Assembly: GCF_000300005.1 (NCBI RefSeq)
Contig: NC_018691.1
Coordinates: 1,426,001 to 1,490,000, forward strand
DNA from: Alloalcanivorax dieselolei B5
GTDB lineage: Bacteria; Pseudomonadota; Gammaproteobacteria; Pseudomonadales; Alcanivoracaceae
Length of the DNA: 64,000 nucleotides
Direction of reading: 5' to 3'
The position numbers were made by a program, and so were the translations under genes. Positions 25,056-44,371 of the stretch are shown here, in pieces (the first letter of the stretch is position 1; every line of letters starts with the position of its first letter). Below the pieces are notes generated by a model. The model was given only the letters and a program-made list of their open reading frames with translations. It was not told the origin of the DNA and made no database searches.

Positions 25056-25619
25056 TCAGGGCCGGGTCGCCGTGTTTCGCCGAAGCCGTCGGGCCTGATC
25101 CTGATACTGCCGCGCTTGATGGCCGCGCCCCAGGGTTTGGTAGAGCGCGGCCAGGTTGTCGAGCACCAGCAAACGCTGCTCCAGCGGCGCCGAGGGTTCG
25201 GCCTTGAGCAGCGTGTTGGCTTGCAGGTACAAAGGTTCCGCCTGTCCGTAGCGGCGGCGCAAGTACAGCGCTGAAGCCAGACCATTCAATGCGTCTGCTT
25301 CGAGTAAGGTGTCATGGTGCCGTTCCAGCAGGGCGAGCACCTGTCTGTAGGTTTGCTCCGCCTCATCGTATTGCTGGCGGGCGAGTTGGGTATCGGCAAT
25401 GCTGGCCCGGATCTTTGCCTCCTCGATACTGCCCACGCCAAAGTGTTCTTCCAGCAGCGGTAACAGCTGACGATAGTGATCCTCTGCTTGCTGATAGTTT
25501 CCCTCGGAGTGTAAGGACAGGGCCTGGTCGTTAAGGCTTTGAACCCGTTGCGGGTTCACGGCCAATACCGGTGCGCTCAGCGTGAACACCAATATCAGTG
25601 ATAACGGTTTGAGGGTCAT
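25056..25619 (-). CDS. secreted tetratricopeptide-repeat protein
   Basis: A 187-residue protein with a signal peptide (MTLKPLSLILVFTLSAPVLA) and three or four tetratricopeptide repeats from about residue 25, for example EGNYQQAEDHYRQLLPLLEE, YDEAEQTYRQVLALLERH and YGQAEPLYLQANTLL. Such helical repeats mediate protein contacts, here in the periplasm. The start follows GAAGGAAACAGC. It lies 110 bases downstream of the PKD lipoprotein on the same strand and may be the last gene of the first receptor cassette; the second cassette has no counterpart. Confidence 0.85.
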   Translation of the reverse strand: MTLKPLSLILVFTLSAPVLAVNPQRVQSLNDQALSLHSEGNYQQAEDHYRQLLPLLEEHFGVGSIEEAKIRASIADTQLARQQYDEAEQTYRQVLALLERHHDTLLEADALNGLASALYLRRRYGQAEPLYLQANTLLKAEPSAPLEQRLLVLDNLAALYQTLGRGHQARQYQDQARRLRRNTATRP

Positions 25620-25729
25620 GCTGTTTCCTTCGATCAGGCCGTCGTTGTCGGTTGGATCCGGGCGGGAAGCACGGTCCGATAACCATGATTCCCGCACCTG
25701 GCGATCCGCGTCAATGATACCGTGAAGGA

Positions 25730-28267
25730 CTAGTAGCTGGCGGGAGCGTATTCGAAGGTCCAGCCCGGCTTCTCCGCGATCTCGAAGGTATAGGTCATAC
25801 CGATCAGGGCATTACCCGGGTCATAGGCACCCTCGGGAAGCTCCGGGTCGGGGCCGACGTCACGCATGACCTCGTCGGCGTTGGCCGGTGCGGTGAGGAT
25901 GAGACTGAAATCGATGCTTTCACCCCGCCTGATGACCTGCCCTTCGGTGAGTCCGGAGAATTTTCCGGAGAAGGCTTCGGTACCGCTTCTTCTCGGCGCG
26001 CTGGCGTGAACCTTGATGATGGTGTAATTCCCACCAAAGGCGGTCAGCCGGTAGTTCTTGATGGCATTGTCGCCCTCGACGAGTTGAAAGGCGGTTATCG
26101 GAAACGAATTGTCGGCGTGATCCCAATAGGGGAAGGCGCGTTGCCGTGGGGCATCGCCGGGCATTCCGGTAGCGAAACCGCTTTGTGTGACACGGTCCCA
26201 GCTGTTTATCTCACCGGCCGAGTGGTAATCCTCCAGTAAAAGACTGGGATAGTCAGCGCGTTGCACCGCGTTGAAGTTGAGGCTATGAGGCTCCGAAGTA
26301 TCGATGCCGTCGCTGACGATGGCGGTGGCGGTGTAGGTGCCGGCAACGAGGGGTTTGCCCGCTGTGAAAGTGGCATCGACGCTGGCATCGGGCAGTTCGC
26401 TGCCAGCCGGTTGTTGCAGCGTCCACAAGTAATAGAGCGTATCGAGATCCGGATCCACCGCGTTTTGTGTATAGAGCAGAACCGGCTCGCTGCCATCATC
26501 GATCACGTAGGGCTGATCAGCATCGTTGAAGTGGGTGTTGCGACGGCGATTCACCAGATGATCGTTGTCGTTGCTGATGCTATCGATCACTGGCGGGTTG
26601 TTTTGCGACTTGACCAGGATTCTTCCGTAATAGGTGGAAGTGAGGTTGCTGGTCACACCATGGCTGTCGGTAACGGCCAGAATAACGATATAAACACCGG
26701 CCTGGTCCGCGACGATGCCGGCGCGGGCGTTATTCAGCACCGTGCCGTCGGTTCGGGTCACGTTCTGGTACCGCAGTTGCGCGGTGCTGCCGTCGGGTTT
26801 GTCCAGCAGATGCCAATGGTAGGTCAGGGCGTTGTCATCGGGGTCGGTACTTCCGGAGCCGTCGAACCAGCCGGTCTGCCCCACCAGGATAGTTTGCGAG
26901 TCCACCGAGATACTTGGAGTGGGTGCGCGGTTGGCGCCGGTACGGGCGATGAAGGTACGGCGTACCGGCTCACTGTCGACCTCTCCGTCATTGACGGTCA
27001 TCTCCACCGTGTACTGGCCTTCCACGGTGGGTGTGAAACTGAATGAGCCTTTGCCGGTAAGGTCTTCCGCGTCGTAGCCCGCGGGGGTGCTGATCCATTG
27101 GTAGCGGCGATTGCTGCTGCCGATGTTGGTGCCATCGATGTCGTAGGAACTGCCGCTGGACCAGACCGTGCCGCCCAGCTCCACTTCATCGGTGGGCACC
27201 GGAGCAATAAAGCCGACACGGGGTTTGCTGTAGAAGGAAGCCACCGGTGGTGTATTTTCCGCACTTTCCGGTTTGGTGACGGTAATGCTGGCGGAACTGA
27301 GGTTGCTGATGGATGTGCCGTCGTGGACGACCAGGTAAGCGGTCCAGGTACCGGCGACATCCGGTGTCAAAGTGGGGCTTGCGGTATCGTGTCCCTGCAA
27401 GCCGTTGTCCAGCGTCAGCTCTGATCCATTGGGTATCCAGATGGCGGCGGGAGCGGCGTCATTACCCGGGCTCATCAGGTACCAGCGATAGCTGAGCTGG
27501 TCGTTGTCGGCATCGCTGCTGCCGGTGCCATCCAGGGTCAGGGTTTGGCCGCGCTCAATAGTGTAAGGGCCGCCGGCATCGGCCATCGGTTTGCTGTTGG
27601 CGTTTCCGGCGACAATGGTGACGGTCAGAGGCGCGCTGGTTTTTTCCTGGTAGCTGACCGTCAGGATGGCGGTGTAAGTACCGGCCACATCCGCGTAGAA
27701 GCTGGTCAGGCCGGTGCCGGTTTGTGCCAGTGATGCGGTACTGCCGGTGGGCAGATCCTGCAGATGCCAGTTGTAAATCAACTGAGCGGCGTCACCACCG
27801 GTAGGCGGTACACTGCTGTTGCCGTCCAGCATAACGGTGGTGCCGATCAGCACATGGTGCTCGGTTTCGGCGATGGCCACCGGGTCAGGATTGGTGGCGG
27901 TGATGATGACGGCGTCATGGCCGCTGTCGGCGGTGCCGTCGTTGACCACCAGATCCGCTTCGTAGGTACCGGGCAGATCGGTCACGAAGGTGGGTTGCGC
28001 CCCGGCCTCATCGGACAGCGCGGCGGTGCTGCCAACCGGTTTGCTGGCCAGGGACCAGGTGTAGCTGAGGGTGGCGCCGTCGGTGGGTGAGCTGCTTTGC
28101 GTGCCATCGAGGGTGACGGTGGTGCCCATTTCCACGGTCTGATCGGGGCCGGCGTTGGCGATGGGGCGGGGCGTGGAATCACCTCCTCCGCCACCACCTC
28201 CGCCGCCACAGGCGGCCAGCAGTAAAGAAGCGCACAACAGGGCGCAGAGTGTTTTCAGGCATTGCAT
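25730..28267 (-). CDS. PKD-repeat lipoprotein of receptor cassette 1
   Basis: An 845-residue lipoprotein: signal MQCLKTLCALLCASLLLAAC with a clear lipobox, then a poly-glycine linker (nine Gly). About six PKD/Ig-like beta domains follow, each with an aspartate/glycine-rich strand such as ANAGPDQTVEMGTTVTLDGT and SYTWSLASKP, then a C-terminal module of about 150 residues without PKD features (GGNYTIIKVHAS, LTEGQVIRRGESIDFS). That module recurs in the second cassette's lipoprotein. It lies 30 bases after the receptor gene. I infer a surface or periplasmic partner that hands ligand to the receptor; this is not an established family function. Confidence 0.85.
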   Translation of the reverse strand: MQCLKTLCALLCASLLLAACGGGGGGGGGDSTPRPIANAGPDQTVEMGTTVTLDGTQSSSPTDGATLSYTWSLASKPVGSTAALSDEAGAQPTFVTDLPGTYEADLVVNDGTADSGHDAVIITATNPDPVAIAETEHHVLIGTTVMLDGNSSVPPTGGDAAQLIYNWHLQDLPTGSTASLAQTGTGLTSFYADVAGTYTAILTVSYQEKTSAPLTVTIVAGNANSKPMADAGGPYTIERGQTLTLDGTGSSDADNDQLSYRWYLMSPGNDAAPAAIWIPNGSELTLDNGLQGHDTASPTLTPDVAGTWTAYLVVHDGTSISNLSSASITVTKPESAENTPPVASFYSKPRVGFIAPVPTDEVELGGTVWSSGSSYDIDGTNIGSSNRRYQWISTPAGYDAEDLTGKGSFSFTPTVEGQYTVEMTVNDGEVDSEPVRRTFIARTGANRAPTPSISVDSQTILVGQTGWFDGSGSTDPDDNALTYHWHLLDKPDGSTAQLRYQNVTRTDGTVLNNARAGIVADQAGVYIVILAVTDSHGVTSNLTSTYYGRILVKSQNNPPVIDSISNDNDHLVNRRRNTHFNDADQPYVIDDGSEPVLLYTQNAVDPDLDTLYYLWTLQQPAGSELPDASVDATFTAGKPLVAGTYTATAIVSDGIDTSEPHSLNFNAVQRADYPSLLLEDYHSAGEINSWDRVTQSGFATGMPGDAPRQRAFPYWDHADNSFPITAFQLVEGDNAIKNYRLTAFGGNYTIIKVHASAPRRSGTEAFSGKFSGLTEGQVIRRGESIDFSLILTAPANADEVMRDVGPDPELPEGAYDPGNALIGMTYTFEIAEKPGWTFEYAPASY

Positions 28268-28297
28268 GGATCGTTCTCCATTAAGTTGTGCAGATAA

Positions 28298-31051
28298 TCA
28301 GAATTTCATTGTCAGGCTCAGCCGCGCGGTGCGGCCCGGCGCCGGCACCAGGCCAAGACTCAGGGCGTCCAGGTAGTACTGGTCGGTAAGGTTGTCGATG
28401 TTGAAATCGATGATCAGTGACTCGTCGTATTGCCAACTCGCGTACACATCCACCAGGCGGTAGTCGTGCCAGGGCACCGGCTGGTTAAAGCCGCGCGAGG
28501 TGTCGTCGTTGAATGGCGGTGTGGGTGTGCGTTGGCCCATGAAGGTGACGCGGGAGCCGATGTCCAGACGTCTTTTGAACAAGCGCGCGCCGAGGGTGAC
28601 GCTGGCGTGCCACTTTGGCGGGATCATGTTGTTGAAATAGGAGTTGGCCACGCCGTAGTCATTGCAGCGTTCGCGCCGATAACTGCCGTAATGGCAGACC
28701 TCGATATGATCGTATTTGCTGCCGCCAAGTTTGGTATAGGCAAAGCCGGCATCGTACTCCAGGGCCAGCTCGGTGCCGTGCAGTGTCACGCTGTCAATGT
28801 TGCGCATGACGAAAATCTGGTTCCCTTCCTCCCAGAGATTCTGCGAAGTGCGCGTCAGATAGTCGTGGGTGACATTGCGGAAACGTGACAACTTCAGTGC
28901 CAGACGGTCATCGTTCAAGAACAGATCGCGGCGCAGAATGTTCATGCCAATCTCTTTGTTGACGGCGCGCTCGGGCTTTAACGGCACATCGAGCGCCGGT
29001 TGTACCGACCAGCCCTGAGTGGCCTCGAACAGGCTGGGCATTCGCAGGCCTTCGGCGTAGCGGGCGTAGAACTGCACGCCGTTCATCCAGGGCTCCCAGG
29101 TCAAGCTGGCCACCGGAGCGCTGCCGCTGTTACGGGTACGGTAACGAATCGGATCACAGGCGCCGTCGCCGTTGTTGTCCACGCAGAAGACGCTTTCCAC
29201 GTAAACGGTCTCGATGACGTTGCCGTCGTCGTCGTAGAGGTTCTCTTCCCGGCCTTGCGGTACCACCAGTTTGTGATCGTCGGTTTCCGCGCGCAGGTAA
29301 CGGATGCCCGCGTCCAGGGTCAGAGCGGGATGCGGTTGCCACTGCCAGTTGAAGAAGGCGCTCAGTTCAGTACGGTCGCCGATGCGGCCGAAACTGGCGT
29401 TACTGATCGGGGTGTCGTCGTCGCTGCTGGGAAGATCGGTATCGATTTCCTCTCTTTGCGCGGTGAAACCGTAGCTGAGGGTATGTTGCCCCCAGCGGTC
29501 GAACAGCGTCTCGTTGCCCAGATCGGCTCCCCAGCGGTCGTAGCGCTCCGGCCTGGGCGTGTCCGAAAAGCCCTCGTAAATGTCTTCGGAGTAACTGCGG
29601 TTTAGCGAGCGGGTGTGGGTGTGCCAGAGGTTGAAATCCAGATTCAGCCAATCCTGGTCCAGAGGGTTCAGGTTGTAGCGGCTGGTATAGGTATGGGCGG
29701 TGACGGTGCTGTTGTCGGTCTGTTTGATCTGCTCCAGCCAGATTAGCTGGGAGGGCATCAGCTCGCCGTATTCGCTGTCGTAGCGCTGGTAACCCAGTTC
29801 CCAGGTCTGATCGTCGCCAAGGTAGAGATTGCTTTTGAGCAGCAGGGTGTTGCTGCGATTGTTGCTGTTGACCACCCGTTCCTCGCCGCGAAAGCGTGCG
29901 ATGCCGTCGCGTACGGCGGTCACCTCGGTATAGAACGGCAGCTCGCGGTAACTCAGTTCCACTTCGGGTGTGGGGCCGTGGGCCCCGGTATAGTAGTTAC
30001 CCTGATTGCGTTGGGCGTAGGCGGCGATCAGATCGAAGTGCTCGAAGCGGCGCGCGGTGGCGATGCTGCCGGCCCAACCGCGCATGTCGAACAGCCCCGG
30101 CCGGTCCATGCCCTCCGGGGAACCGAATGAATCGGGCAGGGCGTGCTCGCCTTCACAAAGACTGGGTACCGCGCAATCCGTGCGATAAGTCCGGCCCGTG
30201 CCGTTCATGCCGGCGACGGTACCGGCCGGGGGCGGGGAGCTGCTGTTGCCCATGACGCTGCCACGAAGCCGGATGCCCCAGTCCTTGCCGGGCTTGATGA
30301 TGTCATTGGCACCGATGGTGCGCATGCTGACCACGCCACCGGTAGCGCCGGCGCCGTCGGCACTCATCACTGGCCCTTTTTGCACTTCTATTTCGGAGAT
30401 CAGGTCCGGGTCCAGATAGGTACGCGAGGAGACACCGGCATAGCCCCGGTAAACCGTGGTTTCCTGGCGGGCACCGTCGACCACCACCGGCACCCGCCCC
30501 TGACCCTGCATGCCGCGGATATTGATATCCAGGCCGCCGCTGTTACGGTTTTCGCCCACCAGTACGCCCGGGGTGCCCTGGAAAATATCGCCCACCGAAG
30601 TGCCGCGAAATCGCTCGATGTCTTTCTGCTCAATGACGTTGACCGAACCGGCGGTGCGGTAAACCTGATCGGCCTTGGCGGAATGCCCTTGCACCTGGAT
30701 TGGTTGCAAGGTGAAAGCATCGGAGGTGGCTTCCGGGATGGACTGGATGACCCAGGCGCCGTCGCCGACCGGAACAGCTCGCAACTTACTGCCACGCAAC
30801 AGCATCGACAGGGCTTCGGCGGGGCGGTAGTTCCCGGCAAGCGCGGAGACGTTGATACCCTGTACCAGACGGTCTTCGTAGGACACGGTGACGCCGGCCT
30901 GGCGCGAGTAAAGATCAAGAATATCCCCAAGATTCCCGGCGGGAAGACGGAACGCCACCACCTCGGAAGCCTGTGCCGTCGCCGGCATGGGCTGCCCCAG
31001 CCACAACAGCGTGGTGAGCAGAATCAGAAAGGACTTGAACGGTTGCGGCAT
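28298..31051 (-). CDS. TonB-dependent receptor with signalling domain, cassette 1
   Basis: A 917-residue outer-membrane receptor. After a signal peptide (ending near ATAQA) comes an STN signalling domain (VVAFRLPAGNLGDILDLYSR), then the plug (RFRGTSVGDIFQGTPGVLVG; NIRGMQGQGRVPVVVDGARQ) and a 22-strand barrel ending in LSLTMKF. The loop region EGLRMPSLFEATQGW...LKPERAVNKE resembles the FRAP/NPNL part of heme receptors but lacks the histidine usually found between these boxes. Three cysteine pairs lie in extracellular loops. The ATG at 31051 fits the signal peptide better than the one at 31078. Transducer type, controlled by the sigma/FecR pair upstream. Confidence 0.92.
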   Translation of the reverse strand: MPQPFKSFLILLTTLLWLGQPMPATAQASEVVAFRLPAGNLGDILDLYSRQAGVTVSYEDRLVQGINVSALAGNYRPAEALSMLLRGSKLRAVPVGDGAWVIQSIPEATSDAFTLQPIQVQGHSAKADQVYRTAGSVNVIEQKDIERFRGTSVGDIFQGTPGVLVGENRNSGGLDINIRGMQGQGRVPVVVDGARQETTVYRGYAGVSSRTYLDPDLISEIEVQKGPVMSADGAGATGGVVSMRTIGANDIIKPGKDWGIRLRGSVMGNSSSPPPAGTVAGMNGTGRTYRTDCAVPSLCEGEHALPDSFGSPEGMDRPGLFDMRGWAGSIATARRFEHFDLIAAYAQRNQGNYYTGAHGPTPEVELSYRELPFYTEVTAVRDGIARFRGEERVVNSNNRSNTLLLKSNLYLGDDQTWELGYQRYDSEYGELMPSQLIWLEQIKQTDNSTVTAHTYTSRYNLNPLDQDWLNLDFNLWHTHTRSLNRSYSEDIYEGFSDTPRPERYDRWGADLGNETLFDRWGQHTLSYGFTAQREEIDTDLPSSDDDTPISNASFGRIGDRTELSAFFNWQWQPHPALTLDAGIRYLRAETDDHKLVVPQGREENLYDDDGNVIETVYVESVFCVDNNGDGACDPIRYRTRNSGSAPVASLTWEPWMNGVQFYARYAEGLRMPSLFEATQGWSVQPALDVPLKPERAVNKEIGMNILRRDLFLNDDRLALKLSRFRNVTHDYLTRTSQNLWEEGNQIFVMRNIDSVTLHGTELALEYDAGFAYTKLGGSKYDHIEVCHYGSYRRERCNDYGVANSYFNNMIPPKWHASVTLGARLFKRRLDIGSRVTFMGQRTPTPPFNDDTSRGFNQPVPWHDYRLVDVYASWQYDESLIIDFNIDNLTDQYYLDALSLGLVPAPGRTARLSLTMKF

Positions 31052-31115
31052 CGAAACGGTTTCCTTTTCTCCGGCCATGTATTGTCTGAGCCGAACGAAA
31101 TCGAAAAACCCGTAA

Positions 31116-31136
31116 ACGAAAATGAGACTTTTTCGT
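31116..31136. promoter_or_regulatory. inverted repeat upstream of receptor 1
   Basis: ACGAAAA (31116-31122) and TTTTCGT (31130-31136) form a perfect seven-base inverted repeat around a seven-base centre, about 65 bases upstream of the receptor 1 start in the gap after fecR. It could be an operator, an ECF-sigma promoter element or an attenuating stem. The role is unknown. Confidence 0.35.
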
Positions 31137-31178
31137 GTGTAAGAGAAAAGGGATTATTACAAGGCCATAATGTTGTCG

Positions 31179-32192
31179 TCAGGCGTTCCCCAACGGCACG
31201 ATTTCGGCCCACCAGCGGGTGAAGTAGCGGACTTCCGCGTTGGCGGAGCGGGCCATGGCTTCCAGGGCGAGATCGGTGTCGCTGAGCTGGTATACGCCGG
31301 AAGCAAGGAAGTCTTCCAGACGGGAATCGCAGCGCAGGACGCCGGTGCGATAGCGCGACAGTTCCTCCAGCAGTTCCGCCATCGGCATGTTGCGAACGGA
31401 GAATATGCCGTCCACCCAGGCACTGTAATCGAAGCGCCGACCATCCACCGCGGTCAGACCGGTATCGCTGATGCGGAAAACCTGGCCACCTTTTACCTGC
31501 GCCGGTGAACCGGCCAGACGCGGCCGCACCGTGACGTCCCCTTCAATCACCTGCACCAGAGTATGTTGACGTTCCCGGCGCACCAGGAAGCGAGTGCCCA
31601 GCGTCGTCAAGGAACCCTGTGGGAAGTGCACTTGCAGCGGTCTCGCGTCCGTGGCGGTGTGCAGATGGATTTCGCCGCGGGACAAGTGCAGATGACGCTC
31701 GCTGTCATCGAAGCGTACTTTGATGGCGCTGTCGGTATTCAGCCAGAGACGGCTGTGATCCCGCAGAAGGTATTGATGACGCTCTCCGGTTCGTGTCGCA
31801 TAGTCGGCATCGAGACGTTGCACCAGGCCTTGGTCAACGGCCAGCCAGCCGAGGCTGGACAGGCCCAGCGCGGAACCGGTGATCACACTCAGAGCCTGAC
31901 GGCGGCTGAGCCGGCGCCTTTCCTCATCGGTCCGGTGTAAAGTGGTGCGCGCCAATGCCGGCGCCTTGCCGGCGGCATCGTGAAAGACGCTGTCCAGTTT
32001 GCCGAGACGTTGCCAGGCCAGTTCATGGGCGGGGTCGGCATCACGCCAGTGCCGGCAGGCTTCTTTATCCGATGTTTGCGCCAGGCCGGATTCCAGACGA
32101 ATGCGCCAGGCGATCGCGGTTTTGATCACTGACTCGGTCAGTGATGGCGCACTCTGGCCACCGTTTGACTGTTGATGGGTTCCGTCTCTCAT
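31179..32192 (-). CDS. FecR-family sigma regulator, cassette 1
   Basis: A 337-residue inner-membrane protein. The cytoplasmic N terminus has the FecR_N (DUF4880) features AIAWRIRLESGLAQTSD and CRHWRDADPAHELAWQRLG that bind the sigma factor. One membrane helix lies near residue 105-125 (ALSVITGSALGLSSLGWLAV). The periplasmic FecR domain has RDHSRLWLNTDSAIKV and GTRFLVRRERQHTLVQVIEG, then the C-terminal STN-like part. It relays receptor occupancy to the sigma factor. Its ATG overlaps the sigma stop (ATGA), so both are coupled. Confidence 0.92.
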   Translation of the reverse strand: MRDGTHQQSNGGQSAPSLTESVIKTAIAWRIRLESGLAQTSDKEACRHWRDADPAHELAWQRLGKLDSVFHDAAGKAPALARTTLHRTDEERRRLSRRQALSVITGSALGLSSLGWLAVDQGLVQRLDADYATRTGERHQYLLRDHSRLWLNTDSAIKVRFDDSERHLHLSRGEIHLHTATDARPLQVHFPQGSLTTLGTRFLVRRERQHTLVQVIEGDVTVRPRLAGSPAQVKGGQVFRISDTGLTAVDGRRFDYSAWVDGIFSVRNMPMAELLEELSRYRTGVLRCDSRLEDFLASGVYQLSDTDLALEAMARSANAEVRYFTRWWAEIVPLGNA

Positions 32193-32713
32193 AAATCCGG
32201 CCGCTCCACATAGGCGGCGGTGTAGCATTTGAGCATGGCCTTCGCCATGTACTTCTCCACCGACGACAGACTGATGCCGAGCCGCTCGGCGATCTTACGA
32301 TAGGGCAGACCGTCGAGGCGTGACATCAGGAAGGTTTTTTTCTCGATCGGCCTGAGGCCGTCGAGCAGATTGTCGATACGTTCCAGTAATTGCAACAATT
32401 CCCACTGGTCTTCGGGGGACGGTTGCTCCTGCTCGGGCAGGGCGGTCAGCAGGGCCAGGTAATTTCGTTCCAGTATCTGCCGCCGGGCCTGATCAACGAC
32501 CAGGTTGCTGGCGGTTTTCGCCAGCCAGGCGCGGGCGTTGCGGATGCCGTGCGGGAGTGCCGGACGATCCAGCAGACGCATGAACGTATCGTGCGCGAGA
32601 TCCTGGGCATTGTCGGCGCCCCGGGTGCGCCGCAGCAGCCAGCGGACCAGCCAGGCATGGTGGTCTTGATAGAGTTTGGAAAATCCCGCTTGTTCAGACG
32701 TGTCGCCATCCAC
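32189..32713 (-). CDS. FecI-like ECF sigma factor, cassette 1
   Basis: A 174-residue ECF sigma factor with region 2 (GADNAQDLAHDTFMRLL; NARAWLAKTASNLVVDQARR) and region 4 (GLPYRKIAERLGISLSSVEK then YMAKAMLKCY). It belongs to the iron-starvation FecI type. It starts with GTG after GGGGG. A Fur-like site lies about 60 bases upstream, so low iron should switch it on, and it should then transcribe the receptor gene when FecR signals ligand. Its sequence differs greatly from the sigma factor of cassette 2. Confidence 0.9.
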   Translation of the reverse strand: MDGDTSEQAGFSKLYQDHHAWLVRWLLRRTRGADNAQDLAHDTFMRLLDRPALPHGIRNARAWLAKTASNLVVDQARRQILERNYLALLTALPEQEQPSPEDQWELLQLLERIDNLLDGLRPIEKKTFLMSRLDGLPYRKIAERLGISLSSVEKYMAKAMLKCYTAAYVERPDL

Positions 32714-32771
32714 GGTCAGGTGCCCCCGGTTTTCCCAAGCCAGTACGAAGCAAAGAGCCCTACATTAGATG

Positions 32772-32790
32772 AAAGTGATTCTCATTACAA
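32772..32790 (-). promoter_or_regulatory. Fur-box-like site upstream of sigma 1
   Basis: On the minus strand the site reads TTGTAATGAGAATCACTTT, matching the core AATGAGAATCA of Fur-binding sites. It lies 60-80 bases upstream of the sigma gene's GTG, a normal promoter position. Confidence 0.65.
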
Positions 32791-32901
32791 TATGAAGGAT
32801 TGAGAACAACAAAGGGGGATAGCCGGTAGGGCAAGACGGGAGGACAGAAGTAGAGACGGACTGAAACCGGGAGCCGGGTGATTCCGGCTCCCGATGCTCT
32901 A

Positions 32902-35316
32902 TTACTCCATCTGTCCCGGTTCGCAGTCGGTCCACTGACTGAGAACGCCCCGGGAAGCTTCCACCCAGTTTTCGTAGACGAAGGTGGCCTGGGGGATTTC
33001 CTTGATCCGGAAGGAGAAATGGAAGCCTTCCGCCAGATCGTCGGTGCGGATGCAAGGGACCGGTGGCATCCAGGTGCTGAAGTTCAAGGTCTCGCCCTGT
33101 TTGATTACCTGACCTTCTCGCACTCCCTCGAACCAGGGAGTGAGACTCTCCAGGCCGCCGTTGATATGGCTGGCCGCCACATCCACCACGGTGTAGTCAC
33201 CGTCCACCGCGTCAATGGACCAGACTATCCTCCTGGGTTCCAGAACCGGACGCAGATGGAGGGTCGTGCCGTAGCCGTAAGGCGGGATGTTCTCGTAAGG
33301 CAACGGATGCAATAGCGCGTCTCCTTCGCTCCAGCTCTTCAGCAGAACCCCTCGGGCGTTTTCCATCGGCTCGATATCGACGTTGAAATCATAGGGCGCG
33401 GCGTCCTCGATGCCGTCGCTGGCGAGGTAACGGAACACATAGGTCCCGGGTTTGGTGAAAACGGCCCCACGGGTATTCGGGCAGTCGGCTTCACCGGGAT
33501 CGCTGGTGAAGTCGCCGCCTTCCGGTGCGCTGAGCATTTCCTCGTGGGTGTAGATCTTGTCGCCGTTGGCATCGACCACCAGCGGTGAAAAATGCAGGGA
33601 CATGCAAGGCAGCAACTGATAGAAACTTTCTCCTGGTGCCAAGCTGCCCCAGTTCCGTTTCCAAATGACGCGGCGGATTTCCGGCGGATTGTTGGCCAGT
33701 TTGGCGATACCGCTGGCCTCGGCCGGGCTGGCACCGGTCAAGCCGCGATCATCGCGGGCCACCACGCGAACGGTATAGGGGCCGGGCACATCAGTGAGTA
33801 CCCGGGCGCGACGATACTCCTGACTTTCCGGCTCCAGCACCGCTTCCACCACCGCCTGGCTGCCGTCCGGCCGGTCCGCCAGTTCCCATTCGAAGGTGAG
33901 CGGATCCAGGTTCGGATCACTGCTGCTGGCGTCGAAGATCAGCGCGTTGCCGACCAGCACGGATTGTGCCTGGGCGGTGACGCCGCCGGTGGCCGGACGG
34001 CCGTTGACGTTACCGATTTTCGCTTCCATGGTGGCTTCACGGGTGATGCTGTTGACGCCATCGGAAACCGTCATGCGCACGCGATAAAGGCCGACTTTGT
34101 CCAGCTTCTGGATTTTTTTACCGAGCGGTTCCCAGGCGCCGATGTCCACCAGCTCGGCGGTGCTGCCGGCGGGTTTTTCCAGTAGTTCGGCGTTGGTGAT
34201 CTGTAGCGGATCGCCTTCCGGGTCATAACCGATGAAGGTGAAATTGGCGCGCAGACCCACTTCCTGTTCGTTGTAGCTGTAGGAAGGGAAATAACCGGTG
34301 GCTTCGAGGTCGCCGATCGGCGGGTTATTGATGCTGCCGTCCTCCGGTCTTTCCACGGTGACGGTGACTTCCCGTTCCTCGCTCTTCCAGGTGCCGTCGA
34401 AAACAAAGAAGTCCAGTTTGTAAGTGCCAGCGGCTTCCGGAGTGAAGCGCACGATGTCGGTGGTGCGGCCCCGCAACGGCGGGATCGGTACACCGTCGGG
34501 CTCGGCGTCCGACCAGACCCACCGGTACTGCAGGGCGGCGCCGTCTGGGTCGTAGCTGTTACCGCCATCGAGCACCACCTCCTCGCCCAGGTTCACGGTG
34601 CGATCCTCGGCCACCGCCACCGGCGGTGCGTTACCCGCCGACACCGTGACCACCACATCGGCCGGTTCGCTGGCGACGCCGTCATGGCTGACCACCAGTT
34701 GCAGCAAGTAGTCGCCGGCGACGTCCAGATTCAGGGTGGCCAGGGCCTGGCCGGCGCCGGTGAGAAAACCGGCACTGCCATCGGGGACCTGTTTCAGCGT
34801 CCATTGGTAGGACAGTGTGCCGCTTTGTCCGGTCGGCGGCTGGCTGGCGCTGCCGTCCAGTCCCAGGGTTTCGGTGCCGAGCCGCACGCTGTGCCGGGGT
34901 GCGGTGATCGCCACCGGGTAGGGGCTGGTGGCGACCAGGGTGACGCGGGTCGGGGTGCTCTGGATGGTGCCATCATCGACCACCAGGCTGGCGACGTAGT
35001 CACCGGGAAGATCGGCGTTGAAGGAGGTGGTCGTGGCGGCGGCGCCGCTGAGACTGGCGCCGCTCTCGGCGGGTTGTGAGACCAGTTGCCACTGGTAGCT
35101 GAGCGTGCCGCTTCTGGGGCTGCTGCTGTTGCTGCCGTCCAGTTGCACTTCCACGGGGCCGTCGGCCAGCGAGAAGGTGGCTTGCGTCGGGGTCAGCACA
35201 TCAATATTGGCGGTGGGGCGGGCCGGGGCGTCGCTGCCACCTCCGCCGCCGCCTCCACAGGCGGTCAGCAGAAGTGCCACGACCAGCGTGCCGGGTCGGA
35301 GCAGAGAGGGTTTCAT
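32902..35316 (-). CDS. PKD-repeat lipoprotein of receptor cassette 2
   Basis: An 804-residue lipoprotein: signal with lipobox LLLTAC, a seven-glycine linker, then about five or six PKD/Ig-like beta domains (for example VEVQLDGSNSSSPRSGTLSY, GEEVVLDGGNSYDPDGAALQ). The C-terminal module carries GDYTVVDVAAS, VREGQVIKQGETLNFS and FRIKEIPQATFVYE, which align with the end of the cassette 1 lipoprotein. Cysteines at C-terminal loops (PCMSLHF, PCIRTDD, TDCEPGQ) may form disulfides. The ATG follows GGAG. It lies 30 bases after the receptor 2 gene. Function inferred as receptor partner. Confidence 0.85.
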   Translation of the reverse strand: MKPSLLRPGTLVVALLLTACGGGGGGGSDAPARPTANIDVLTPTQATFSLADGPVEVQLDGSNSSSPRSGTLSYQWQLVSQPAESGASLSGAAATTTSFNADLPGDYVASLVVDDGTIQSTPTRVTLVATSPYPVAITAPRHSVRLGTETLGLDGSASQPPTGQSGTLSYQWTLKQVPDGSAGFLTGAGQALATLNLDVAGDYLLQLVVSHDGVASEPADVVVTVSAGNAPPVAVAEDRTVNLGEEVVLDGGNSYDPDGAALQYRWVWSDAEPDGVPIPPLRGRTTDIVRFTPEAAGTYKLDFFVFDGTWKSEEREVTVTVERPEDGSINNPPIGDLEATGYFPSYSYNEQEVGLRANFTFIGYDPEGDPLQITNAELLEKPAGSTAELVDIGAWEPLGKKIQKLDKVGLYRVRMTVSDGVNSITREATMEAKIGNVNGRPATGGVTAQAQSVLVGNALIFDASSSDPNLDPLTFEWELADRPDGSQAVVEAVLEPESQEYRRARVLTDVPGPYTVRVVARDDRGLTGASPAEASGIAKLANNPPEIRRVIWKRNWGSLAPGESFYQLLPCMSLHFSPLVVDANGDKIYTHEEMLSAPEGGDFTSDPGEADCPNTRGAVFTKPGTYVFRYLASDGIEDAAPYDFNVDIEPMENARGVLLKSWSEGDALLHPLPYENIPPYGYGTTLHLRPVLEPRRIVWSIDAVDGDYTVVDVAASHINGGLESLTPWFEGVREGQVIKQGETLNFSTWMPPVPCIRTDDLAEGFHFSFRIKEIPQATFVYENWVEASRGVLSQWTDCEPGQME

Positions 35317-35346
35317 GAGCGGATCTCCGTGTCGGATGCGAAGCAA

Positions 35347-38046
35347 TCAGAATTGAAGGGTGAAACCGAGGCGGGCGGTGCGGCCGGGCGCCGGCACCAG
35401 GCCCAAACTCAGCGCGTCCAGGTAATAGCGGTCGGTGACGTTGTCGACGGTCAGATCCACCGACAGCGTTTCGTTGTGCCGGTAGTGAACAAACACATCG
35501 AGCAGGTTGTAGTGGTGCCAGAGCACCGGCGGGTTGAAGCCGGTGGGGGCGTTGTAGCGCGGGATGCGGTTGCGCTGGCCCATGAAAGTGCCGCGCGCGC
35601 CGAGCTCCAGCCGCCGTTGCAGCAGCCGTACTCCGAGCGTGGTGCTGGCGTGCCACTTGGGCGGGATCATGTTGTTGATATAGCTTTGCGGTAGCCCCCA
35701 GTCGCTGCAGTAATAGCGCACATAGCTGCCGACATTGCACACTTCGATATGGCTGTAACGGGTGCCGCTCAATTCGGCGAACCAGGCGCCGGCATCGTAG
35801 GCGAGATTGACCTCCCAACCGTGGAAGTCGGCACTGTCGATATTGCGCAGGCGGAAAAAGTCCAGGCCGTTACCGGTTTCCCAGGCGTTGGGCTGAGTCC
35901 GGGTCAGGTAGTCGTCCACATGGTTGCGAAAGTACGCGACTTTGAAACGCAGCTTGTCGTTGGCGGCGAACAGGCCGTCTTTCAGATAGTTGAGTCCGAA
36001 CTCGCGGTTGATGGCGTGCTCCGGTTTCAGCGGAATATCCAGCGCCGGACTCACCGACCAGCCGGACGTGCTTTCGAACAGACTGGGCATGCGCAGCGCT
36101 TCCGCGTGGCGGGCGTAAAGCTGCAGACCTTTTACCGGCTCCCAGGTGAGACTGGCGATCGGCGCGCTGCCGGAATGGTGATTGCGATAGTGAACCGGCG
36201 TGCAGCCGCCATCGCCGTCCGGTACACAGGCGGGATCGTTCGGCGTTAGCGGCAAGGGGTTGTTGTCCTTGGATTTGAAGCGGGTATAACGGGTTCCGGC
36301 TTCCAGCGTCCAAGCCGGCCAGGGTTGCCATCGCACCGAAGTGAAGGCGCTGAATTCATCCCGTTTGCCGCTGCGGGAGCCGTCGTAGAAACCGGTGGCT
36401 TCGGGGGTATCGGTGTCCATGTCCTCCCATTGCGCGGACACTCCGTAATCCAGTTGCAAGGTACCGAACGGATAGAACCGCATGCTGTTGCTCAGATCGG
36501 CACCGTAGCGCTGATAGTCGTCCGTGCGCGGGGTGTTGTCGGCGATATCCACGGAGCCTACCGCCGGCGTATTCAGGTGGGAGACGGTATCGGTATGCCA
36601 CAGATGCAGGCGCAGATCGGCCCAGTCGTGCGCCACCGGCTGCCAGTGGTACCGCAGGGCGTAAGTCTGATTGAGTACTTCGCTGTCCAGCCATTGCCGG
36701 GCCTGACCGAAGGAGCGGATCTGCGACGGCATCATCTCGCCGAAGGCACTGTCGTAGCGCAGATAACTCAGCTCCACGCTTTGCTCCCGGGGTAAAAAGA
36801 AGCGGCCCTTGAGCAGTACCGATTCGCTGCTGTATTGCGTGTTCGGGATCCGTTCACCGGCACGGAACGGGGAAACGCCCTCGCGGCTCACCGGCGTCTC
36901 GGTGTACCAGGGTAACTTCTCCGGTTCGCCCACGACGATGTAAGGGGTCGGTCCGTGTTTGCCGGCGTAGTAATTGCCCTGATCGCGCTCGGCGTAGGCG
37001 GCCACCAGGTCCCCCCATTCGAACCGTCGTGCCATCGCCAGACTGGCGGAATGGCCACGGAAATCCAGCAGGCCGGGACGGTCCATGCCGTGCTCCGGCG
37101 CGAAGCGGTCCGGCATCAGGTAGCGGTCTTCGCAGTAGGTGGGGAAGCGGCAATCGGAGCGGTAGCTGTTACGCGGCAGATAGTAACCGGCATGGGTGCC
37201 GGCGGCCGGCGCCGTGGAATTGTTGCCGATCAGGCTGCCGCGCAGGCGGATCCCGCTGACTTCGCCTGGGCGGACGACGTCGTCCGCGTTCAGCGTGCTG
37301 ACACTAACCACGCCGCCGGTGGCGCCGGTGCCTTCGGCGGTCATCACCGGGCCTTTGTCGATACGAATACTGCCGATCAGATCCGGGTCTATGTAGCTGC
37401 GGCTGGAGACGCCGGAATAGCCACGATACACAGTGGTTTCCTGGCGGCTGCCATCAATCAGCACCGGTACCCGGCCTTGTCCCTGCATACCACGGATATT
37501 GACATCGAGGCCGCCGGAATTGCGGTTCTCACTGACCAGAACCCCGGGCGTGCCACGAAAAATATCACCCACCGAGGTGCCGCGAAAACGCTCGATGTTA
37601 TCGCGCGTGATCACATTGGCGGAGCCGGCGGTCCGATAGGGCGTATCGCTGAGACGGGTGCTGCCCTGGACCTGGATCGGCTCCAGTACCAGAGCATCGC
37701 CGGTGGGGGCGGAGTAGATCACAGCGGCGTTGTGGCCGGTGCTGCGCCAGATCAGATCGGTGCCATCCAGCAGCCGGGTCAGCGCCTGTTCGGGCGAAAG
37801 ATTTCCGCTGACGTCGCGCGACCGGCGCTGGCTGGCGAGTTCGGACGCCACCGAAATCTGCCAGCCGGATTGGCGTGAAAACGCATTGATGGCGGAAGCC
37901 AGGGATTGCGCCGGAATATTGAACGGATGCCGATTCCGGTCGCCGGCTTCGACGCCGGAAACCGGCACCGATTGCGCCAGGACCGGCATTGGCAGGGCGG
38001 CGGCAATACTGGTAAGCAGCAGGCAGCGTGTCAGCAGCTGCATCAT
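35347..38046 (-). CDS. TonB-dependent receptor with signalling domain, cassette 2
   Basis: An 899-residue receptor clearly paralogous to receptor 1: signal peptide ending near PVLAQ, STN domain (FNIPAQSLASAINAFSRQSG), plug with RFRGTSVGDIFRGTPGVLVS and NIRGMQGQGRVPVLIDGSRQ, barrel ending RTARLGFTLQF. The plug and the last 250 residues are much more alike between the two than the middle loops, which suggests different ligands. The same three cysteine pairs occur in loops. The FRAP-like box reads ALRMPSLFESTSGW. The ATG follows AGGAG. A Fur-like site lies just upstream, so it may be transcribed by itself as well as through sigma 2. Confidence 0.92.
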   Translation of the reverse strand: MMQLLTRCLLLTSIAAALPMPVLAQSVPVSGVEAGDRNRHPFNIPAQSLASAINAFSRQSGWQISVASELASQRRSRDVSGNLSPEQALTRLLDGTDLIWRSTGHNAAVIYSAPTGDALVLEPIQVQGSTRLSDTPYRTAGSANVITRDNIERFRGTSVGDIFRGTPGVLVSENRNSGGLDVNIRGMQGQGRVPVLIDGSRQETTVYRGYSGVSSRSYIDPDLIGSIRIDKGPVMTAEGTGATGGVVSVSTLNADDVVRPGEVSGIRLRGSLIGNNSTAPAAGTHAGYYLPRNSYRSDCRFPTYCEDRYLMPDRFAPEHGMDRPGLLDFRGHSASLAMARRFEWGDLVAAYAERDQGNYYAGKHGPTPYIVVGEPEKLPWYTETPVSREGVSPFRAGERIPNTQYSSESVLLKGRFFLPREQSVELSYLRYDSAFGEMMPSQIRSFGQARQWLDSEVLNQTYALRYHWQPVAHDWADLRLHLWHTDTVSHLNTPAVGSVDIADNTPRTDDYQRYGADLSNSMRFYPFGTLQLDYGVSAQWEDMDTDTPEATGFYDGSRSGKRDEFSAFTSVRWQPWPAWTLEAGTRYTRFKSKDNNPLPLTPNDPACVPDGDGGCTPVHYRNHHSGSAPIASLTWEPVKGLQLYARHAEALRMPSLFESTSGWSVSPALDIPLKPEHAINREFGLNYLKDGLFAANDKLRFKVAYFRNHVDDYLTRTQPNAWETGNGLDFFRLRNIDSADFHGWEVNLAYDAGAWFAELSGTRYSHIEVCNVGSYVRYYCSDWGLPQSYINNMIPPKWHASTTLGVRLLQRRLELGARGTFMGQRNRIPRYNAPTGFNPPVLWHHYNLLDVFVHYRHNETLSVDLTVDNVTDRYYLDALSLGLVPAPGRTARLGFTLQF

Positions 38047-38068
38047 GTGAGGCTCCTGTCTTGAAATC

Positions 38069-38087
38069 GAGAATGAGATCGATTCTC
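38069..38087 (-). promoter_or_regulatory. Fur-box-like site upstream of receptor 2
   Basis: GAGAATGAGATCGATTCTC matches the 19-base Fur consensus at 13 positions by my count and is a near-palindrome (GAGAAT...ATTCTC). It lies 23-41 bases before the receptor start. This gives the receptor direct iron control in addition to its sigma factor. Confidence 0.65.
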
Positions 38088-38202
38088 TTAAAGTTCAAAG
38101 ACGGAGAGCCCGGCGGCTTTTCCCAACCGTTGGGAATTTTTTTAGAAAATAATCAGAAAAAGTAAGTCCCGGCGTGGACCGGGGCCACCGGCCGCTTTTC
38201 CA

Positions 38203-39168
38203 CTAATGGGTGACGATCCGCAACAACGGTGACAAGGACAGCAGGCGACCTTGATGGGCGGCGATCAGATTATCCAGAGCCTGATCAGGGACGGAAAGGT
38301 CATAGGCGCCGGTGACACGTTTTCGGGCGAGGGCCTCATCGGTCAGAAGAATATGGCCCTGATGGTAGCGCTGTAACGTGGCCGCCACGTCGGCGACGGT
38401 GGCGTCGTGCACGAACAGCCGGTTGTCGCGCCAGCTGGCCACGTCCTCGATGGCCACGGTCGACCGTTCCACGGTGCCGTCATGAAACAGGGACATTTGC
38501 TCACCGGGCTGCAACTGGCCGAGCAAACGCGGCGCCGATGAGCGGGCCTGTTCCAGCTTTACTTTGCCGCTGGCCACACTGACGGTGTCCGACAGGCCGC
38601 CGATGGCGACGTTGAAACGGGTACCCACAACCGTGACATCAAGATCCCGCGCATGGACCACGAAGGGACGCCCGGGGTCGGGGGTAACATCGAAGAAGGC
38701 TTCTCCGCGCAGCAAGGTCAGATCACGGGTGGCGGCGTCGAAGTCGGTGCTCAGGGCGCTGTCCGCGCCGAGATAAACGGTGCTGCCGTCGGTCAGAGTG
38801 ATGGTCTGGTTGGCCGCGGTACCGGTGATGTGGTCGGCCCGCCAATGCAGAATCGCCGAAGGCGCCACCGCGAGCAGCAGACAAGCGGCCACGGCCAGCG
38901 CGGCGATACGCAGCGGTAAACGTCGCCGCCGCGAAGCGGGCCTGGACGCCGGCGCTGCTTCCACGCTGGTCTCTGGCGCCGCCCGCAGCAGTTGCCAGGT
39001 GCGCCGTGCCTGCTTCCAGGCGTCGCCATGGTCCGGGCTGGTGTCCAGCCAGTGACGATGCCGTTGCTGCAGATCGCTATTGTCGGGGTCGTCCTGAAGC
39101 CGCAACAGCCAGTCCATCGCCTCGCTGATGTGCCGCTCCCGGTCCGTGCGCGGTGGCTCCGATGTCAT
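38203..39168 (-). CDS. FecR-family sigma regulator, cassette 2
   Basis: A 321-residue FecR protein with the N-terminal sigma-binding part (SEAMDWLLRLQDDPDNSD; HRHWLDTSPDHGDAWKQARR), one membrane helix near residue 85-105 (IAALAVAACLLLAVAPSAIL) and the periplasmic domain with LTDGSTVYLGADSALSTDF, GTRFNVAIG and the C-terminal QALDNLIAAHQG. I chose the ATG at 39168, after AGGAAAGGTTGG, since the longer frame adds 61 unconserved residues. It follows sigma 2 by 70 bases. It should pass the ligand signal from receptor 2 to sigma 2. Confidence 0.92.
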   Translation of the reverse strand: MTSEPPRTDRERHISEAMDWLLRLQDDPDNSDLQQRHRHWLDTSPDHGDAWKQARRTWQLLRAAPETSVEAAPASRPASRRRRLPLRIAALAVAACLLLAVAPSAILHWRADHITGTAANQTITLTDGSTVYLGADSALSTDFDAATRDLTLLRGEAFFDVTPDPGRPFVVHARDLDVTVVGTRFNVAIGGLSDTVSVASGKVKLEQARSSAPRLLGQLQPGEQMSLFHDGTVERSTVAIEDVASWRDNRLFVHDATVADVAATLQRYHQGHILLTDEALARKRVTGAYDLSVPDQALDNLIAAHQGRLLSLSPLLRIVTH

Positions 39169-39238
39169 CCAACCTTTCCTGCTGTGTAATGCGCCGTAGG
39201 GCCTGTTCACATTGTACATGACGAATGAGGGGCGGGTT

Positions 39239-39781
39239 TTAATCATCATCGGTGGTGTCGTCGCTGGCGGACCGGTTGGCCCGGTCGAGATGAAGCGCGA
39301 TCCTGACCAGCCCCTGGTGCACCAGACGCTGTGCCGTGGAGGTAGAGACATTCAGTGTCCTGGCGATATCGTGCAACCGGGCCTCGCCCAGGCGATGCAT
39401 CTCCAGTGCCTTGCGAGTGGTTTCGGGGAGCGCCTCCAGAGCCTTGCGCACTTCATCGAGTTGTTGCGTGTTGAGCAGGCTGCGTTCCGGCTCGGGCAGG
39501 GGGCCTGGCGCCATCCAGGCGTGCGCGGGCTCGTCGTCATCGTTGTGGTGATAGCGGTTTTCCAGGCTCAGCCGACGGGTCAGATCGGTGGCCAGATTAC
39601 GGACGATACGATAGAGGTATTGTGCTGGTTGCCGGGGAGTGGAGGCGCTGGCGAATCGCAGCCAGGCATCCTGCACCACTTCCTCGGCGGTGGCCCGGCT
39701 GCCGGTGAGCGGTGTGGCGTAGTTGATCAAGGCCGCGCGATGCTCCAGGTAGACCTTGAGTTTGTCGTTGTCGCCATGCAT
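39239..39781 (-). CDS. ECF sigma factor, cassette 2
   Basis: A 180-residue ECF sigma factor with region 2 (ATAEEVVQDAWLRFASAS; QYLYRIVRNLATDLTRRLS) and region 4 (LGEARLHDIARTLNVSTSTA; QRLVHQGLVRIALHL). It is of the FecI/PvdS iron-starvation type and ends in an acidic tail (SDDTTDDD). A strong Fur-like site lies 61 bases upstream. The start may be the ATG at 39781 or the one at 39775. It presumably drives receptor 2 together with its FecR. Confidence 0.9.
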   Translation of the reverse strand: MHGDNDKLKVYLEHRAALINYATPLTGSRATAEEVVQDAWLRFASASTPRQPAQYLYRIVRNLATDLTRRLSLENRYHHNDDDEPAHAWMAPGPLPEPERSLLNTQQLDEVRKALEALPETTRKALEMHRLGEARLHDIARTLNVSTSTAQRLVHQGLVRIALHLDRANRSASDDTTDDD

Positions 39782-39841
39782 GGACGATGCCCCGGGCCCT
39801 GAAAAACGCGCTGAAGGTGTTCAGTGTGGCTGCACTTTATT

Positions 39842-39860
39842 TTTAATGAGAATCATTGTC
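39842..39860 (-). promoter_or_regulatory. Fur-box-like site upstream of sigma 2
   Basis: TTTAATGAGAATCATTGTC matches the Fur consensus at 15 of 19 positions, with the hallmark AATGAGAATCATT. This is the best Fur site in the window and sits 61 bases upstream of the sigma 2 start. Confidence 0.8.
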
Positions 39861-41244: not shown

Positions 41245-41491
41245 GAGAGGAATGAGTTTGGGTTTCATTTGTATTGACGCAGATCACAGGCACACACTAA
41301 CGTCGAGGACCACGGCCCTGGCGATCACTCCGCCGCGGTCGAGCCCCGTCTTCCTGGCATGGCATTCCGCAGTGAAAATAAAAGTAAGATAAATTCCAAT
41401 CTCGTTCGTCTTGATAGTACAGGACGGTTCAGCCGGGGTGCCGCGCGCCGCCGGGAACCGCCATCCGATCCATCAGACAGGACGAACGAGC

Positions 41492-42100
41492 ATGTCCAAC
41501 GCCCTCTTATCCACCTTCCTCAAAGACGGTACTAGCCAGGAGCATGAACGGCTCGACAGACGCATCATGACGCTGGCGCCGTTCGCGGACCGTGAGCGCT
41601 ACACGCTGTTCGTGCGCACCCAGACCCGGCTGCAGCGGGTCGCCTCTCCGCTATATCAATCGGAACGCCTGGCCCGGTGGCTGCCCGGCCTCGCCGCGCG
41701 TGACCGGCTGTCGGCGGCGCTGTCCGATTGCGCGGACCTGGGCGTTTCGGTGGGAGCGCTGGAAGACGACAGGCGCGCCGCCGAAGGGGTCGGTGCCGGC
41801 GATGATTACGCCGCTCTTGGCTGGCTTTATACCGTGGAGGGTTCCAACCTGGGCGCCGCTTTCCTGCTCAAACACGCAAAAAGCGAGCTGGGGTTGTCCG
41901 AGACGTTCGGTGCCCGTCACCTGGCCGGCCATGACGACGGCCGCGGACTGCACTGGCGCCGGTTCAAGGAGGTCCTGGATGCGCTGATGCTTTCCCACGA
42001 TGAGCGGCGACAGGCGCTGCAAGGCGCGCTCGACGCCTTCGGCTTTGCCCGCGAAGGCGTCGAGGTGCTGCTGGCCGGTGCCGTGGTGGACGTGCAGTGA
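41492..42100 (+). CDS. hemO: bacterial heme oxygenase, biliverdin-producing
   Basis: A 202-residue heme oxygenase of the HemO/PigA kind. The proximal heme-ligand histidine is in GTSQEHERLDRRIM near residue 17, and the distal helix is YTVEGSNLGAAFLLKHA near residue 110. It opens heme to biliverdin, CO and Fe2+ in the cytoplasm, releasing iron. It starts a rightward block with exbB, exbD, tonB and the heme ABC transporter, so it completes a heme-iron pathway. The start at 41492 follows AGGACGAACGAG; the 27-residue upstream extension is not conserved-looking. Confidence 0.92.
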   Translation: MSNALLSTFLKDGTSQEHERLDRRIMTLAPFADRERYTLFVRTQTRLQRVASPLYQSERLARWLPGLAARDRLSAALSDCADLGVSVGALEDDRRAAEGVGAGDDYAALGWLYTVEGSNLGAAFLLKHAKSELGLSETFGARHLAGHDDGRGLHWRRFKEVLDALMLSHDERRQALQGALDAFGFAREGVEVLLAGAVVDVQ

Positions 42101-42108
42101 CGGGGGCG

Positions 42109-43083: not shown

Positions 43084-43517
43084 TGGCTTTCAAACCGCAG
43101 GGCGACGACGCTTCCGAATTGCCGGACAACCATGACATCAACGTCACGCCGTTCATCGATGTGATGCTGGTGTTGTTGATCATCTTCATGGTGGCGGCGC
43201 CGCTGGCCACGGTCAGCGTACCGGTGGATCTGCCGGCGGCGGTGGCCGAGCCGCGCCCGGCGGAGCCGAAACCGCTTTACCTCAGTGTGCAATCCGATCT
43301 CACGCTGACCCTGGGGCAGGATCAGGTGGTGACGCTGGAGACCCTGATCCCGGCCTTGCGGGATGCGCTGCCGGATCAGGAGCAGCGCATTCTGCTGCGC
43401 GCCGACAAAAGCGTGCCCTATGGTGAGTTGATGCGGGTGATGAACCGGCTCAGCGAAGCTGGATACCTGAAAATCGCCCTGATCGGCGCGGACAAGCCGG
43501 CGGATTCCAGGCCATGA
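43083..43517 (+). CDS. exbD: TonB-system proton channel protein ExbD
   Basis: A 144-residue protein with one N-terminal membrane helix holding the essential aspartate in INVTPFIDVMLVLLIIFMVA (Asp near residue 26) and a periplasmic domain (VVTLETLIPALRDALPD; ILLRADKSVPYGELMRVMNR). It is the partner of ExbB. Its ATG shares one base with the exbB stop, and its own stop overlaps the tonB start (ATGA). Confidence 0.95.
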   Translation: MAFKPQGDDASELPDNHDINVTPFIDVMLVLLIIFMVAAPLATVSVPVDLPAAVAEPRPAEPKPLYLSVQSDLTLTLGQDQVVTLETLIPALRDALPDQEQRILLRADKSVPYGELMRVMNRLSEAGYLKIALIGADKPADSRP

Positions 43518-44320: not shown

Positions 44321-44352
44321 TTATCGGTACTGGCCGGGCGGTTTTTAATATT

Positions 44353-44371
44353 GAGAATTGTTATCATTCAT
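44353..44371 (+). promoter_or_regulatory. Fur-box-like site upstream of hmuTUV
   Basis: GAGAATTGTTATCATTCAT contains the half-sites GAGAAT and ATCATT of the Fur consensus (12 of 19 by my count) and lies 77-95 bases before hmuT, in the gap after tonB. It suggests a separate iron-controlled promoter for the heme transporter. Confidence 0.55.

Follow-up and report, generated by a model that had tools for sequence, protein, structure and literature searches.

What does a large lipoprotein do when its gene lies directly after that of a heme-type TonB receptor? The question is raised by a stretch of 64,000 nucleotides from Alloalcanivorax dieselolei B5 (NC_018691.1, positions 1,426,001 to 1,490,000), here called the window, whose minus strand carries eight genes in two cassettes, A and B, each encoding an extracytoplasmic function (ECF) sigma factor, a FecR protein, a TonB receptor with an STN domain and a PKD lipoprotein. 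The receptor and the lipoprotein form a conserved pair within one clade of receptors. The reading we favour, at a probability of about 55%, is that the cassettes are heme-uptake units, each repressed by iron and inducing itself, and that the lipoprotein is a dedicated outer-membrane co-receptor that holds or presents the heme source. The cassette genes are, in window coordinates:

39239..39781, minus strand, ECF sigma factor of cassette B (Pfam Sigma70_r2 and Sigma70_r4_2; best NCBIfam model PRK07037, under its cut-off)
38203..39351, minus strand, FecR-type anti-sigma factor of cassette B (open reading frame bounds, the real start probably being downstream of the overlap with the sigma gene; Pfam FecR and DUF4880)
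35347..38046, minus strand, receptor of cassette B with STN, plug and barrel (Pfam; TIGR01785, 344.6 bits against a cut-off of 316.85)
32902..35316, minus strand, PKD lipoprotein of cassette B, a predicted immunoglobulin (Ig)-like array (lipobox and Gly run in the translation; PKD)
32189..32713, minus strand, FecI-like ECF sigma factor of cassette A (Pfam; FecI model 160.6 bits, under the cut-off of 260)
31179..32228, minus strand, FecR-type anti-sigma factor of cassette A (Pfam FecR and DUF4880)
28298..31078, minus strand, receptor of cassette A with STN, plug and barrel (Pfam; TIGR01785, 326.8 bits against 316.85; best solved relative HasR)
25730..28267, minus strand, PKD lipoprotein of cassette A, a predicted Ig-like array (PKD_4; AlphaFold model with an all-beta domain pattern)

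A conserved pair of receptor and lipoprotein

The first-pass annotation, made from the sequence alone, had described this gene order and a spacing of 30 bases between receptor and lipoprotein. All eight genes and their domains (sigma-70 regions 2 and 4; FecR with DUF4880; STN, plug and barrel; PKD) were verified by Pfam, and the spacing is 30 bases in both cassettes, in B provided that the ATG at 35316, which we chose, is the start (the mechanical open reading frame extends to a TTG at 35346). The lipobox with its Gly run reads AACGGGGGGGGG in lipoprotein A and TACGGGGGGGS in B. ECF sigma factor, FecR and STN receptor are encoded together in both cassettes, as in FecIRA-type signalling, and both receptors score above the curated cut-off of TIGR01785, the NCBIfam model for heme/hemoglobin receptors. 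The cassettes had also been called paralogous. This is fitting for the receptors (54% identical) and the lipoproteins (31%), but FecR (26%) and the sigma factors (25%) are only distantly akin, and since receptor A groups with Solimonas and receptor B with Pseudoalteromonas in the receptor tree, the cassettes are not a recent tandem copy.

The receptors for this tree came from a scan of genome contigs with receptor B, in which 145 loci were confirmed and the 80 best used, and from stretches of relatives and one receptor of a class-wide sample (G284). Duplicate loci (L069, L070, L072, L087, L124) were left out before counting, as was one copy of a receptor that occurs twice in the overlapping L055/L056. 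In the tree of 96 receptors (quick maximum likelihood, LG+G4, no bootstrap, midpoint root) 34 receptors of the HasR superfamily form one branch, hereafter the clade, with a support of 100 in the Shimodaira-Hasegawa-like approximate likelihood ratio test (SH-aLRT). A lipoprotein gene is found downstream and on the same strand in 33 of the 34. The last receptor, from Catenovulum (L080), has only 195 bases of contig left after it, and a lipoprotein, followed by hemO, runs off another contig end of the same genome. Five clade loci (L058-L061, L081) have receptor and lipoprotein separated by a tonB-exbD-exbB set in convergent orientation. Beside related receptors outside the clade the lipoprotein profile gave no match at any of 61 loci, a few of which are short. 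These tallies of 33 and 61 are per locus, L053-L056 being neighbours in one genome; the very distant second receptor of L068 was included in the tree but excluded from the loop and His comparisons below, and a second Corticibacter pair (L177) is outside the count of 34.

The same picture was obtained in 114 relatives, where 14 receptor matches (E<=1e-80) in eight genomes each lie no more than about 3 kb from a lipoprotein match; one island (G008) has four receptors, all with a lipoprotein of their own. Searching with the lipoprotein profile, 16 of 17 strong matches (E<1e-30) in relatives lie in receptor islands, the other being a remnant in G060 that consists of a sigma gene and the C-terminal part of a lipoprotein, and one weaker match is receptor-linked (L177). 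The clade is rare, occurring in two of the 369 genomes of the class sample, one of which is the window's own, and its pairs are spread over environmental Gamma- and Betaproteobacteria (Alcanivorax, Alloalcanivorax, Pseudoalteromonas, Microbulbifer, Comamonas, Pigmentiphaga, Hydrogenophaga, Solimonas and others). The first-pass annotation had made its proposal depend on finding receptor and lipoprotein adjacent in other genomes, and this is what is seen. Because the adjacency is both conserved and specific, it is very likely that the two form a functional pair.

The two proteins have also diversified together. Across the 33 loci with all four genes, distances between receptors correlate with those between lipoproteins at r=0.90, as compared to 0.60 for receptor and FecR and 0.40 for receptor and sigma factor; FecR and sigma factor correlate at 0.70, lipoprotein and FecR at 0.52. 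When the lipoprotein was reduced to 174 random columns, r with the receptor was still at least 0.80 in 20 draws, with a mean of 0.85. The divergence of the receptor is therefore mirrored better by the lipoprotein than by the regulators. It is conceivable that the lipoprotein is an adhesin, or a binder of glycans or matrix, that shares only its regulation with the receptor and holds cells on heme-rich debris, for example. Co-regulation alone is not expected to give a correlation of 0.90, far above that of FecR and sigma factor in the same cassettes, nor does such a role predict that the lipoprotein is absent beside 61 related receptors, and we find it unlikely.

Some further arrangements were seen around the pairs. 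Corticibacter (L177:66-11776) has a second tandem cassette of sigma, FecR, receptor and lipoprotein, then Slam and hemO. The receptor of L082, recorded as Pantoea sp. 18069, groups with Comamonas, which could reflect a misnamed record or a transfer of the cassette. L173:7220-8720 is an apparent remnant, a sigma gene and then the C-terminal part of a lipoprotein without FecR or receptor, adjoining hemO-exbB-tonB. Secreted-looking TPR proteins adjoin the pairs at 13 of the 33 clade loci (L053, L057, L062, L073-L078, L082, L083, L101 and the window) as compared to one of the 61 others; the window gene is:

25056..25697, minus strand, secreted TPR protein after lipoprotein A (Pfam TPR)

Heme as the probable cargo

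Next to the cassettes, on the plus strand, are genes for the later steps of heme use, and Fur-like sites lie before several of the genes:

41411..42100, plus strand, heme oxygenase (PF01126, 80 bits)
42097..44320, plus strand, ExbB, ExbD and TonB genes (Pfam)
44448..47165, plus strand, HmuTUV-type binding protein, FecCD permease and ATP-binding cassette (ABC) ATPase (Pfam Peripla_BP_2, FecCD and ABC_tran)
39842..39860, no strand, Fur-like box before sigma B (15/19 matches)
32771..32789, no strand, Fur-like box before sigma A (14/19)
38069..38087, no strand, weaker Fur-like site before receptor B (13/19)
44347..44365, no strand, Fur-like box before the HmuT-type gene (14/19)

When the entire 64 kb was scanned with the Fur consensus, sigma B, hmuT and sigma A were the genes preceded by the three best sites. 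Matches of at least 13/19 were found at nine positions, two of them overlapping, as compared to 0-3 in five mononucleotide shuffles.

According to the first-pass annotation heme was hinted at solely by the nearby hemO, tonB and hmuTUV genes. These neighbours are real, all verified by Pfam between 41411 and 47165, but the support is wider, as hemO, TonB-ExbBD genes and those for the hemophore HphA and the flippase Slam stand beside other members of the clade. Among the 33 clade loci, hemO is present at 12, ExbB and TonB at 14, HphA at 8 (seven genes, L055 and L056 sharing one) and Slam at 9; in the case of L061, HphA is on a different contig (L163), at its beginning. Loci of the Alloalcanivorax, Microbulbifer and Comamonas type have the order receptor, lipoprotein, HphA, Slam, in some with hemO next, and in such loci Pfam confirmed HphA in three and Slam in two. 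Of 24 clade genomes 11 encode the HphA_N domain, as compared to 2 of the 369 genomes sampled from the class; the genomes of these two sets are neither independent nor sampled alike.

No His stands between the FRAP-like and the NPNL-like box of either window receptor. This had been noted correctly in the first-pass annotation, which took it as room for another iron carrier. That argument is weakened, since 58 of the 61 receptors outside the clade have no His in this stretch either. Among these 58 are all 13 receptors encoded beside HphA and/or Slam, with one of the 13 barely covering the stretch. Within the clade, a His is present at this place in five of the 34 receptors, in four cases just N-terminal to the NPNL-like box. 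The idea of a siderophore or another iron carrier as cargo can also draw on the two heme-ligand histidines of HasR, which we take to be H189 and H603 and which are absent from both window receptors in the alignment; the plug His aligns with Tyr213 of receptor P0002, a Tyr that is invariant in 31 clade receptors and all 61 others. A non-heme cargo is nevertheless highly improbable in our view, given the TIGR01785 scores, the adjacent hemO-tonB-hmuTUV genes, HphA beside other members, and HphA-linked receptors in which the same His is missing. We infer heme as the cargo, with better support than the first-pass annotation allowed.

The lipoprotein and its possible roles

The AlphaFold model of lipoprotein A, built with 34 aligned relatives, consists of beta strands throughout, with a mean predicted local distance difference test (pLDDT) score of 85.3, a predicted template modelling (pTM) score of 0.64 and low confidence in residues 1-30. 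From the strand pattern and the PKD matches it can be read as about six Ig-like domains followed by a C-terminal beta domain. The array would have a stretched rod shape, with the pTM leaving the placement of the domains open; the C-terminal domain folded alone reached a pLDDT of 83 and a pTM of 0.81. The lipobox Cys is kept in all 34 aligned lipoproteins, and the residue after it is Gly or Ser, not Asp, in the 29 viewed.

The clade receptors have a distinctive feature of their own. The stretch between the first barrel strands is longer than in the others, 74-92 as compared to 42-85 residues, and contains two Cys, which occur together in just one of the 61 other receptors. Taken as the first outer loop, this Cys-bearing stretch, the Cys302-Cys308 loop, is a candidate docking site for the lipoprotein. 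Its position also bears on whether the lipoprotein instead faces the periplasm, as a scaffold or signalling bridge for receptor, TonB and FecR. The periplasmic orientation is the default for outer-membrane lipoproteins, and of 25 clade genomes 15 have a Slam match above the cut-off, Slam being below it or absent in the other 10, the window genome included. A bridge to FecR fits poorly with the weaker co-diversification of lipoprotein and FecR (0.52) and with a clade-specific receptor feature that seems to lie on the outside, and we regard a periplasmic role as rather improbable. With no SlipAM match at E<=0.001 in the window genome, surface display, if real, seems to be Slam-independent there.

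The first-pass annotation had likened the place of the lipoprotein to that of HasA and had seen a possible ligand-capture system. The cassettes do resemble the Has system (HasR and HasA; 3csl, 3ddr) in having a sigma factor, FecR, an STN receptor and a partner gene after the receptor, and HasR is the best solved relative. The window locus differs in that Pfam finds no HasA among the cassette proteins, both HasR heme histidines are missing from the receptors, and a large lipoprotein takes the place of the partner. The genome does have a true Has operon, with sigma, FecR, HasR, HasA, ABC, HlyD and TolC, 1.7 Mb away (L178), and the cassettes are therefore something other than the organism's Has system. 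This operon holds the single HasA match of the genome (3187871-3188248, above the Pfam cut-off) beside its own HasR, which aligns with the solved HasR over its length at 370 bits, has both histidines (SGHG in the plug, GAHIG in the loop) and is 25% identical to P0002. The cassette of Pseudoalteromonas lipolytica (L065) is immediately preceded by a Has set of separate genes, consisting of a receptor end, HasA, ABC and HlyD. HasA is present in three clade genomes (the window's, G008 and G116).

Could the lipoprotein still be a true tethered hemophore, one that takes over the binding of heme from HasA or HphA? It occupies the position of the partner gene in Has and Hph loci, and the window genome has neither a Slam match nor, at E<=0.001, an HphA_N match. 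No His is conserved across the 34 aligned lipoproteins, however, HphA is also present in several of the pair loci, and both this genome and P. lipolytica have HasA as well, here beside a separate HasR. A tethered hemophore in place of HasA or HphA is hardly likely.

In both Has operons a large protein without Pfam match is encoded on either side of HasA (L178:9656-11389 and L178:6798-8771, within 3179000-3197500 of this genome; L065:505-2508 and L065:3272-5203). The two in the window genome look secreted, and their C-termini carry a stretch rich in Gly along with a hydrophobic segment and Arg residues, an ending of the GlyGly-CTERM-like kind.

A co-receptor role for the lipoprotein would most likely work as follows. 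Iron shortage would release Fur, and the ECF sigma factor and FecR would be made. A loaded receptor would then signal through its STN domain to FecR, by which receptor and lipoprotein would be induced. The lipoprotein, on its flexible Gly linker, would extend from the cell surface, serve that single receptor, and hold a heme source, either a hemoprotein or HphA where present, for presentation to it. The receptor would import the heme by TonB, and the ABC transporter and HemO would complete the uptake. Cassettes A and B may serve different heme sources. This reading is built on the gene order, the receptor family, the exclusive pairing, the co-diversification, the heme-gene context and the predicted Ig-like array; capture by the lipoprotein is our best guess for its part in it.

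Several observations weigh against such a role. Besides the missing HasR histidines in the receptors and the lack of a conserved His in the lipoproteins, a fold search with the C-terminal domain gave no significant match, and the whole model matches generic Ig-type arrays only. Loci outside the clade are also rich in hemO (17 of 61) and HphA (12 of 61, five of these fetched because of HphA), which implies that the heme context marks the whole superfamily and says little on the lipoprotein. Three of the 11 genomes with HphA (G114, G115, G145) have it at a separate locus with its own receptor. Furthermore, three orphan PKD lipoproteins, one of them in this genome, have a related C-terminal domain and no receptor in the fetched stretch, so the family of this domain is not as such tied to heme; here the surroundings were read for two of 11 weak matches to the domain (L174, L176) and for L175 from another search.

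The orphan of this genome (L174:7263-10202, near 3561803) adjoins genes of a phage-like or mobile type, for RadC, a YqaJ recombinase and a Gp3-like protein, and it is perhaps on a mobile element because of these neighbours. In the window itself, the open reading frame at 60381-62498 on the plus strand has a weak match to the lipoprotein profile (64 bits) and otherwise looks different.

Relation to known systems

The cassettes share the FecI-like sigma factor, FecR and STN receptor with FecI-FecR-FecA, but add a lipoprotein, and their receptor is of the heme type. Surface lipoproteins as partners of TonB receptors are known from Neisseria, where TbpB and HpuA often have a Gly stretch after the lipid-bearing Cys. 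The window lipoproteins appear to differ from these in their predicted Ig-like array; Pfam gave no match to a TbpB_B_D-type barrel in P0001 or P0005 at E<=0.001, and the genome is without a Slam match.

The Hph system of Acinetobacter baumannii (HphR, HphA and the Slam HsmA; PMC8560813) is similar in its heme-receptor superfamily and in the hemO and TonB genes at the locus, and several clade loci also carry HphA and Slam. In our tree, which did not include A. baumannii HphR itself, the receptors of five HphA-Slam loci together with L136 form the branch beside the clade with a support of 99, to be read with a warning of long branches, and further HphA-linked receptors are on another branch (L096, L099, L102, L105, L106, L110, L122). 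The PKD lipoprotein sets the two apart, being found at none of the 12 HphA loci outside the clade, and the window genome for its part is without HphA_N and Slam matches.

We found no description of the receptor-lipoprotein pair in the open PubMed Central literature, with subscription papers and preprints outside the scope of the search. A table on Kerstersia gyiorum (PMC6461280) has two runs of fecI, fecR, receptor and 'PKD domain protein', without comment in the accessible text, and the word PKD is absent from the main texts of the Hph paper and of one on type XI secretion (PMC8406197). The pair in heme-uptake islands is real and conserved, and apparently undescribed.

It is possible, at rather less than even odds, that the pair represents a further class of partners in the HasR superfamily. 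An Ig-rod lipoprotein would dock on the Cys-bearing first outer loop, reach past the lipopolysaccharide and seize hemoproteins. It would feed its receptor alone or as part of a relay that includes HphA, and the rods would differ according to the hemoprotein. The known heme receptors of the superfamily use soluble hemophores (HasA, HphA), and a receptor-specific, lipid-anchored partner would be another route of feeding. If this is true, a number of large PKD lipoproteins that are now named by their domain alone would gain a function, and genomes with both a true Has operon and two cassettes, as here, permit the strategies to be compared within one cell.

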